Of a stretch of DNA of 42,419 nucleotides, positions 39,739 through 41,256 are shown piece by piece. Made by a program: the position numbers and the translations under genes. Within the stretch, counting starts at the first letter, position 1; each line of letters starts with the position of its first letter. This DNA is from Candidatus Poribacteria bacterium (GTDB taxonomy: Bacteria > Poribacteria > WGA-4E > WGA-3G). The notes beneath the pieces are model-generated. The model did no database searches. It saw only the letters and a list, made by a program, of their open reading frames with translations, and was not told the DNA's origin. Where the stretch lies: contig JAGWBU010000004.1 in NCBI GenBank assembly GCA_021295735.1, positions 7,185 to 49,603 of the forward strand, read 5' to 3'.

Positions 39739-39846
39739 TGAAATAACTGAAATTCAAAATGGAAAATTTTAAATTCCCAAGTAATTTTGCTTTTTTTAAA
39801 CCCCCTTCCAAAAAAGCACACTCTTTAGGTTAAATCTAATTGGGAA

Positions 39847-41067
39847 ATGTTTATGCGATACGATCTATCAATGTACACGGATCTAACAGATGAGGAACTC
39901 ATCCGGTTTGCACAAGTCGGTGATGAGTCTGCATTTACAGAACTGATGTTACGTTATAGTCCACGCATCTGGAAAGTTGTAATCGCGAATTCGAGACAAC
40001 GCCGTGACGCTGAAGAAATTCTCTTGGACGTCTGGCGATCTGTTTGGGAAAACATCAGCGGACTGCGAAACGTTGAGAGTTTTGGTGGATGGATACATCG
40101 CATTGCTTACAACGCCTGCAAGAGGTACTACACTTCTCGGCACCATTCAAAGGGTGAAATTCTGTGCGATGATGCTTACTTAACCGATCACATTGATCGG
40201 AACGCAGTTGCACGTTTCCGAGAAACAGAACTTCGTGAGGCAGTAGCTGAGGCAGTACATCAACTTCCAGATAGAGTGCGCCGCGTCGCGGAGTTATACT
40301 ATCTGGAATTGTGGAGTGTCAAAGAGATCCATGCAGAACTCGGATTAGCGATAGGAACAATCAAAACCAAATTAAGACAGACACGTGAACTCCTGCGTAA
40401 GGAGTTCGGTGTCGAACCTGAAGGAGTTAGAACAATGTCATCTAAACGAAAAGAATCCAAACGCATCCGAACCAAAACCAAAGTTATCGGTGTCGGTGGC
40501 GCGGGAGGTAATGCTGTCAAACGAATGGTCGGAGCAGGTTTGGCAGACATTGAATTTTACGTTGTGAATACAGATCAACAAGCACTCGAAAAATGTGACA
40601 ATGCAACGCCAGTACAGATCGGTGTTAACACCACGCAAGGGCTTGGTTGTGGAGCAAATCCAGAGATAGGCAAGAGAGCAGCTGAGGAAGACAGAGAAAC
40701 GCTCCAGAACATTGTTGGGGACGCGGATATTGTCTTCATCACTGCTGGCATGGGTGGTGGAACAGGAACAGGTGCTGCACCCCTGATTGCATCTCTTGCA
40801 CGGGAACAAGGTGCTTTAACTGTAGGTATTGTCACTTGTCCGTTTAATTTTGAGGGAGAACGGCGCGCCGAACGCGCAGAAGAAGGACTGCAGGAACTTC
40901 GTGACAATGCTGATTCTGTTCTTGTACTGCCAAACCAACGACTTCTTGATACGGTGGAGCGGCCATTGAAAGTACCCGAGGCGTTTCGTCTCAGTGATGA
41001 AATGCTGCTCCACGGTGTTGCAAGTATTTCGGAATTTCATTCCAGCACCACACACAGAGACACTTAG
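39847..41067 (+). CDS. ECF sigma factor fused to a truncated FtsZ GTPase domain
   Basis: Residues about 13-95 are sigma region 2 (DEELIRFAQVGDESAFTELM, DAEEILLDVWRSVWENI, GGWIHRIAYNACKRYY). About 130-190 are region 4 (LPDRVRRVAELYYLELWSVKEIH, IGTIKTKLRQTRELLRKEF). From about residue 197 an FtsZ domain begins: KVIGVGGAGGNAVKRM, FYVVNTDQQAL, GLGCGANPEIGKRAAEED, the tubulin signature GGGTGTGAAP (about 302-311), CPFNFEGERR, and a final GVASIS. It ends there, before the NxDFADV T7 loop that supplies the catalytic Asp, and lacks the C-terminal domain and tail. GTP binding is therefore plausible, normal polymer GTPase activity is not. An internal ribosome site precedes the FtsZ part. ATG 39847 or 39853 may be the start. 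Confidence 0.9.
   Translation: MFMRYDLSMYTDLTDEELIRFAQVGDESAFTELMLRYSPRIWKVVIANSRQRRDAEEILLDVWRSVWENISGLRNVESFGGWIHRIAYNACKRYYTSRHHSKGEILCDDAYLTDHIDRNAVARFRETELREAVAEAVHQLPDRVRRVAELYYLELWSVKEIHAELGLAIGTIKTKLRQTRELLRKEFGVEPEGVRTMSSKRKESKRIRTKTKVIGVGGAGGNAVKRMVGAGLADIEFYVVNTDQQALEKCDNATPVQIGVNTTQGLGCGANPEIGKRAAEEDRETLQNIVGDADIVFITAGMGGGTGTGAAPLIASLAREQGALTVGIVTCPFNFEGERRAERAEEGLQELRDNADSVLVLPNQRLLDTVERPLKVPEAFRLSDEMLLHGVASISEFHSSTTHRDT
40421..40437 (+). promoter_or_regulatory. Internal ribosome site and in-frame ATG for the FtsZ half
   Basis: AAGGAG at 40421-40426 is followed after 8 bases by ATG 40435, in frame with the fusion. It would give a 210-residue FtsZ-like protein starting MSSKRKESKR. 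It lies exactly at the domain boundary, so it may be a relic of two separate genes or a functional dual start. Confidence 0.6.
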
Positions 41068-41112: not shown

Positions 41113-41256
41113 CTCTTAAGAGTATACGTCTCTATAAGGTAGAGACAAACCCCAACACATCTATCGTCATGAGTTTGCACATATAGTTCGTGTTGGGGTT
41201 TAACCTTTCAGTAGAAACGTTCTAATGAAGATTAAGAAACCACTTCTTAATCTTCA
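41113..41256 (+). promoter_or_regulatory. Series of hairpins between the sigma-FtsZ gene and the DUF5916 gene
   Basis: Four structures follow each other: a CTCTTAAGAG palindrome (41113-41122); a 7-bp stem (41128-41134 with 41140-41146); a perfect 12-bp stem AAACCCCAACAC (41147-41158 with 41190-41201); and a perfect 13-bp stem with a 5-base loop (41226-41238 with 41244-41256). None has a proper T-run, so they are not standard terminators. They could stabilise or regulate the mRNA leader of the gene at 41309. Confidence 0.6.

Follow-up and report, generated by a model that had tools for sequence, protein, structure and literature searches.

An ECF sigma factor gene that runs in frame into an FtsZ subdomain in sponge-dwelling Poribacteria, with a predicted promoter and a predicted second start of its own

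Why would a bacterium carry a sigma factor and a piece of the division protein FtsZ in one reading frame? The question is raised by a gene on a 42,419-nucleotide stretch of DNA, here called the window, from a family of sponge-dwelling Candidatus Poribacteria. An earlier note on this DNA had described sigma regions 2 and 4 running without a stop into an FtsZ GTPase domain, with an intact GGGTGTG motif and a cut ahead of the T7 loop. Both parts of this description were borne out, the first by the single frame and Pfam, the second by alignment with a canonical FtsZ.

The open frame spans positions 39847..41067 (+ strand) without interruption and codes for 406 amino acids, counted from its first ATG. 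The boundaries in the earlier note held for the open frame and less well for its start. The ATG at 39853..39855 (+), which gives 404 amino acids, is the likelier start of the full-length protein, because most relatives keep it and it lies six bases behind GGGAA (39842..39846, +), a probable ribosome-binding site. Behind the gene, at 41147-41201 of the window, a long inverted repeat (AAACCCCAACAC...GTGTTGGGGTTT), possibly a terminator, was noticed by eye.

Sigma region 2 (residues 34-98; 39946..40140, +) matched Pfam PF04542 (Sigma70_r2, E 2.5e-07), and sigma region 4 (residues 131-182; 40237..40392, +) matched PF08281 (Sigma70_r4_2, E 1.8e-07). No Pfam model for sigma regions 1 and 3 was matched in the window protein. 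The NCBIfam sigma70-ECF score was 67.2 against a cut-off of 42.9, as expected of an ECF sigma factor. Residues 211-370 matched the Tubulin/FtsZ GTPase family PF00091 (E 3.8e-47; 161.5 bits vs a cut-off of 33), and all three Pfam matches exceeded the gathering score. Foldseek and phmmer placed the FtsZ nucleotide-binding subdomain and helix H7 at residues 211-397 (40477..41037, +). The FtsZ part of the model was 51% identical to S. aureus FtsZ 6kvq (E 4e-19, Foldseek); phmmer matched the protein to 5xdv (8.8e-60), and ECF sigma chains were also matched by sequence. The AlphaFold2 model had a mean pLDDT of 73 and a pTM of 0.48, with a disordered linker at 190-207, and its domain arrangement is unreliable.

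The GGGTGTG signature of the T4 loop (residues 303-309; 40753..40773, +) is intact in the window protein, in agreement with the FtsZ pattern GGGTG[TS]G, and the alignment showed the GTP-pocket motifs to be largely retained. GTP binding by this truncated FtsZ part (the stub) is plausible. The protein ends past helix H7, just short of the position of NVDFAD, the NxDxxD T7 synergy loop of the canonical copy. A short tail (41038..41064, +) stands in place of T7, the C-terminal domain, the linker and the anchor peptide. The window protein gave no Pfam match to FtsZ_C (PF12327), scored 260.3 with TIGR00065 (under the cut-off of 295.2), and lacked the C-terminal anchor peptide (DIPAFLR in the canonical copy). 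The earlier idea that such a protein might bind GTP and FtsZ ends without normal hydrolysis stands as a possibility, with GGGTGTG kept and T7 missing.

Is there a complete ftsZ elsewhere in the same genome (G000), as the earlier note had asked? One was found on contig C114, coding for 448 amino acids with a C-terminal anchor peptide. Its product is 66% identical to the window stub over the GTPase subdomain and has the T7 loop, C-terminal domain, linker and anchor peptide that the stub lacks. A second sigma-FtsZ gene, of 1435 amino acids, lies on contig C68. It shares with the window gene the sigma clade, the junction, the internal start and the promoter motif described below. Unlike the window gene, it continues into a whole FtsZ and then into the PHP, polymerase, finger and HHH domains of DnaE. 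The genome also has a separate DnaE frame of 1195 amino acids.

A third copy, a sigma-FtsZ stub on the 3.1-kb contig C187 (L003, L037), was 91.5% identical in DNA to the copy of another genus (G034) and was nested in the clade of that genus in the FtsZ tree. This contig is probably an assembly contaminant, and the count for the genome was reduced from three sigma-FtsZ genes to two. The window sigma domain gave 45 matches in this genome, three of which are the sigma-FtsZ genes just described. The remainder (e.g. L130-L149) were remote, at 23-33% identity, and many lay in long frames in which beta-propeller repeats (WD40 or others) and a membrane segment were recognised by eye. The window itself, at 898-2907, also encodes a free-standing WD40 repeat protein of 669 amino acids.

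The fusion could in principle be an artefact, a frameshift, a mis-assembly or a decaying pseudogene. The source is a metagenome assembly with an estimated contamination of 5.55%, and contig C187 does look like a contaminant (91.5% DNA identity to the G034 copy). On the other hand, a search of related metagenome bins, as the earlier note had proposed, found the fusion again and again. Stub fusions numbered at least 46 in-frame copies (frames of 398-445 amino acids) in at least 44 of 58 genomes of the family, and longer sigma-FtsZ genes at least 43 in at least 43 genomes (30 with frames of at least 994 amino acids, 13 with 474-630). At least 89 matches spanned sigma and FtsZ in the 58 genomes, none of those listed with an internal stop, and at least 54 of the 58 genomes had one or more fusions. 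These counts were made by hand from the match listing and are lower bounds. G011, G019, G021 and G077 gave no spanning match among the matches listed.

Single-contig genomes (G023, G079, G080 and G081) are among the carriers. Together with the 89 listed stop-free matches, they exclude a local sequencing error without recourse to reads, and the junction at 40380-40450, which the earlier note had singled out for resequencing, is real. Purifying selection on both parts and the recurrence of neighbour genes also speak against an artefact: DUF5694, CBM9/DUF5916 and TPR-type ECF genes recur near many stub loci. An assembly or frameshift error was rejected on the 89 listed in-frame matches, and an artefact of any kind is scarcely credible. 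The lack of stops further suggested that the joined form is selected. The homologs are not always two separate genes, the finding that would have spoken against the earlier note; in-frame fusions occur in most genomes of the family, and the stub stands alone in 2 of 58. At one locus (L061:2-5896), six consecutive open frames matching the DUF5694 gene of the window lie beside a sigma-FtsZ gene.

Outside the family, no spanning match was seen in 26 genomes of other families; in 23 of these the listed matches cover FtsZ only, and for G049, G082 and G083 the best E-value alone was shown, weaker than for any fusion. In G052, the FtsZ alignment reached back to query residue 163, across two stops. 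Within a named genome collection, a scan detected the fusion in Poribacteria alone, with Candidatus Poribacteria metagenome assemblies as the relatives; its patterns favour close relatives, and remote cases elsewhere could escape it.

Of 703 sequence pairs, 369 were usable for dN/dS; the medians were 0.14 (sigma part) and 0.17 (stub), and the two stubs standing alone (G002 vs G010) gave 0.24. Four canonical FtsZ pairs had values of 0.03-0.06, with dS exceeding 1 in three. Selection constrains the stub, though less strongly than canonical FtsZ. In the GGGTGTG motif, Ala replaces the second Thr in 30 of 38 stubs, and five stubs additionally have Ala in place of the first Gly; the motif is complete in the window copy. 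The Ala substitution and the higher dN/dS suggested that GTP binding, and docking onto FtsZ, may be weakened in most stubs. The stub ends near the same point in 36 of 38 sequences, the longer tails being those of L025 and of one L058 gene.

FtsZ is not the only partner at this junction. Related sigma factors are joined there to a whole FtsZ, to FtsZ followed by a DnaE core (PHP, polymerase, finger, HHH), to DnaE parts alone (L162), to PurC (L071) or to WD40 repeats (L160). The beta clamp DnaN is the partner in L161 and L074 by Pfam, and in L076 and L242 too. CobQ was considered as the partner in L074 and L076 and rejected, with Pfam DnaN in L074 and PF00712 rings in the L076 gene. Behind apparently the same ABC-permease gene (by eye), FtsZ-DnaE, DnaN, or PurC plus FtsZ was found according to the species.

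The PurC behind the sigma factor in G084 (L071:4319-5827) was the sole PF01259 match in that draft genome, and its NCBIfam equivalog score of 405.5 exceeded the cut-off of 251. G000 and G023 have one free PurC each. This suggested that the cassette of G084 took over the sole purC. Free DnaN copies are also present in G023, in G084 and in the genome of L074.

In the FtsZ tree, canonical FtsZ (97/84), the stub group including the two stub-alone rows (100/99) and the whole-FtsZ group (100/94) each formed one side of a branch. The tree is unrooted and includes 33 stubs and 19 whole-FtsZ rows; the other five stubs and L031, in which the T4 motif differs, were left out. In the sigma tree of 94 rows, the stub genes formed a single clade (100/98). 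The DnaN and PurC partners grouped with one whole-FtsZ set (100/99), DnaE alone fell inside the other (100/100), WD40 stood apart (91/80), and the unjoined sigma factors L095, L096 and L172 fell outside. The branching of this tree alone was used, not counts of partner change.

A predicted ECF promoter, TTTAAACC-N18-CTCTTTA, lies at 39795..39827 (+) ahead of the window gene. ECF sigma factors recognise promoters of the ECF type, in many cases that of their own gene. Among 85 regions upstream of related sigma genes, 80 contained the motif TTAAAC[CT]-N17..19-CTC, each time with a spacing of 18; 0.14 was expected from base shuffles, which preserve base content only. The five of the 85 regions without it were those of L017, L066, the second gene of L071, L095 and L096, the last two with TGAACC-N18-CTCT instead. 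At L161 and L240, two promoter copies 164 bases apart precede sigma-DnaN, as if one had been left from an exchanged gene.

The strict motif had three sites in the 5.07-Mb genome of the window and none for the reversed control. They precede the window gene, the sigma-FtsZ-DnaE gene and, on contig C183 (3341-3373; L225), no sigma gene. The C183 site is an exact promoter copy, the next frame on its strand starts 243 bases on, and it resembles the promoters of sigma-WD40 genes. It is perhaps the relic of a lost gene of this kind. Eight further genomes had 15 exact sites, all in the six that carry the clade. Fourteen preceded clade genes (two of them the same gene), and the remaining one an apparent transposase. 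The two genomes without the clade had no exact site, and the reversed control had five sites over the same eight genomes. No strict site was found at the stub-alone gene of G010.

When one mismatch was allowed in the own genome, the C187 copy and two non-clade sites (C99, C135) were added. Two mismatches or fewer gave 49 sites vs 85 for the reversed control, which is no excess, and a wider regulon was rejected on these counts. No clear other target of the predicted promoter was found. The earlier note had supposed that transcription is tied to GTP level; with exact sites only at the two sigma-FtsZ genes and on C183, this would chiefly mean the transcription of the sigma genes themselves.

A Shine-Dalgarno site, GAAGGAG, is predicted at the junction of the sigma and FtsZ parts (40420..40426, +), from the anti-Shine-Dalgarno pairing in the family and from codon bias. 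It is followed by an ATG (M197; 40435..40437, +), invariant in 26 aligned sequences and the predicted start of the stub alone. In the sigma family, all 86 partner starts had pairing of -5 kcal/mol or below, compared with 88 of 929 other internal Met codons. The 86 rows are the 88-member family set minus two stand-alone sigma factors, and related rows share ancestry, so the counts are not independent. The start codon was ATG in 85 and GTG in one. Eighty-three starts lie at the junction and three at the start of DnaN, which was the author's choice for those rows. The start and the six residues before it took 60 different forms among the 86 members.

Codon usage at this site also pointed to a ribosome-binding site within the coding frame. 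Among distinct 12-mers, Ile was ATA in 17 of 18 cases (23% elsewhere), Arg was AGR in 50 of 51 (28% elsewhere) and Gly was GGR in 49 of 54 (45% elsewhere). Glu and Lys codons gave no bias in this pooled test, in which the DnaN rows were left out; the test is stronger than the per-row one, and shared ancestry stays in it. Row by row, the synonymous test at the junction reached p<0.05 in just 19% of 83 rows. Four sigma-DnaN genes have a strong ribosome-binding site and an ATG immediately ahead of DnaN, as free dnaN does. Their older start at the junction is missing from L074 and L076, and is GTG in L161 and ATG in L242.

In G002 and G010 (2 of 58 genomes), the sigma part is gone and the stub stands alone as a gene of 212-222 amino acids. 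These genes lie behind frames of the DUF5694 kind (by eye), and an apparent relic of the sigma tail was found upstream of them. The two species seem to have deleted the sigma factor and kept the stub. We interpreted the conserved internal start as one that is predicted to let the stub be made without the sigma part. Selection probably acts on both readings, keeping the frame open for the joined protein and the start in place for the partner alone.

A copy of an enzyme joined to a transcription factor is familiar from the MocR and ROK regulators, which are not sigma factors and in which we know of no nested start. To our knowledge, no sigma factor fused to components of the division or replication machinery has been reported. 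None was found in the open-access literature searched, nor was a described sigma-FtsZ protein, in agreement with the claim of the earlier note that no sigma factor with this domain had been described. ECF sigma factors with extensions have regions 2 and 4 and then an extra domain in one chain, as here (PMC8999054). Unlike these, the Poribacteria proteins have as partners copies of core division, replication and purine enzymes, and a second start at the junction. FtsZ has no occurrence in the main text of that review of extended ECF sigma factors.

Among the groups treated there, ECF57 has two conserved Cys linking regions 2 and 4 and a WD40-like extension (PMC8999054). WD40 recurs as a partner in the Poribacteria clade. 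The window protein has FtsZ in that place, and C91 is the sole invariant Cys in 26 sequences. The SnoaL, TPR or cysteine-rich extensions of ECF41, ECF42 and ECF238 were also not seen; behind the window sigma there is only the FtsZ GTPase.

What, then, may the gene do? In an FtsZ filament, subunits pack with the nucleotide face of each against the T7 face of its neighbour. The reading to which we lean, tentatively and without holding it to be probable, is an autoregulated ECF sigma gene with a nested in-frame second start, in which the stub is a switchable division brake. The sigma factor would transcribe its own gene, which, once on, would amplify itself and yield two products, the sigma-FtsZ stub and the free stub. 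Keeping the GTP face of FtsZ and having no T7 face of its own, the stub would attach to the T7 face left exposed on normal FtsZ and halt filament growth. The full-length form may park the sigma factor on FtsZ and so close a feedback loop. The docking surface would be that used by SulA, a protein that binds FtsZ at the T7 loop and acts as a filament cap (PMC4929429). The likeness to SulA and MciZ is one of mechanism only, action on an exposed FtsZ end that blocks growth (PMC4929429); these two are not copies of FtsZ, whereas the Poribacteria inhibitor would consist of an FtsZ subdomain fused to a sigma factor. Several findings count against the brake. The dN/dS of the stub (0.17) exceeds that of canonical FtsZ (0.03-0.06), most stubs carry the Ala substitution in GGGTGTG, WD40 and PurC partners fit poorly with a role in division only, and the stub-alone gene of G010 lacks a strict promoter site.

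Two other explanations are close rivals of the brake. In one, raised in the earlier note, the FtsZ part is a built-in sensor or anti-sigma of the sigma factor to which it is joined. Regulatory C-terminal extensions are well established in some ECF groups (PMC8999054), the joined form is seemingly selected (89 listed spanning matches without a stop), and the window copy largely keeps its GTP-pocket motifs. A sensor, however, would not need a conserved internal ribosome-binding site. Two genomes retain the stub without the sigma factor, the partner behind the same neighbour gene varies (FtsZ-DnaE, DnaN, PurC plus FtsZ), and exact promoter sites lie almost solely at the clade's own genes. The internal start, the stub-alone species and partners that are not GTPases (the beta clamp and PurC) thus tell against sensing as the whole story, and we consider it doubtful. 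In the other explanation, the sigma factor is a self-amplifying driver only and function lies in the partner translated from the internal start; in-frame joining would serve translational coupling or be a by-product. The confinement of promoter sites almost solely to the clade's own genes is as expected from this, as are the likeness of the DnaN partners' ribosome-binding site to that of free dnaN and the PurC of G084, which passes its equivalog score and is the only one found there, behind a sigma factor. G084 is a draft, however, and another purC may be missing from it. If the joined protein were unimportant the frame would be free to break, yet none of the 89 listed matches has a stop, and this explanation appears unlikely.

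An integrated decoy was also considered, in which the partner mimics host proteins attacked by phages (FtsZ, polymerase, clamp) and the binding of an inhibitor turns the sigma factor on. Partners do include FtsZ, DnaE and DnaN, and there is a precedent in Gp0.4 of phage T7, which inhibits FtsZ and with it forms a pair that triggers a defence protein (PMC13423816). From a predicted complex, however, Gp0.4 is reported to contact the synergy-loop surface, which is missing from the stub (PMC13423816). PADLOC found no family in the window protein, the DUF5694 neighbour or the sigma-FtsZ-DnaE protein, and two weak matches in the WD40 fusion L160; membership of an anti-phage family was rejected. There was also no excess of further promoter sites as possible defence targets. 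Such a decoy is quite improbable.

Beyond the brake, the family may represent a gene format of a new type: a sigma cassette that transcribes itself and whose second reading can be exchanged. Its members would form a sigma network that targets essentially those members and interferes directly with division and replication; for and against, we hold this to be almost, though not quite, evenly balanced. If true, one promoter and one sigma factor would drive both a sigma-partner protein and, from the nested start, the partner alone. The partners would be copies of cell-cycle machines (an FtsZ stub, FtsZ with a polymerase III core, a polymerase core, a sliding clamp), or PurC or WD40. For these organisms, which are known from metagenomes, the reading predicts a natural filament-capping FtsZ subdomain, a polymerase core without its C-terminal part, and two proteins per frame. 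If it is right, division or replication would be controlled through copies of the machines themselves, made by a sigma factor that drives chiefly its own genes.
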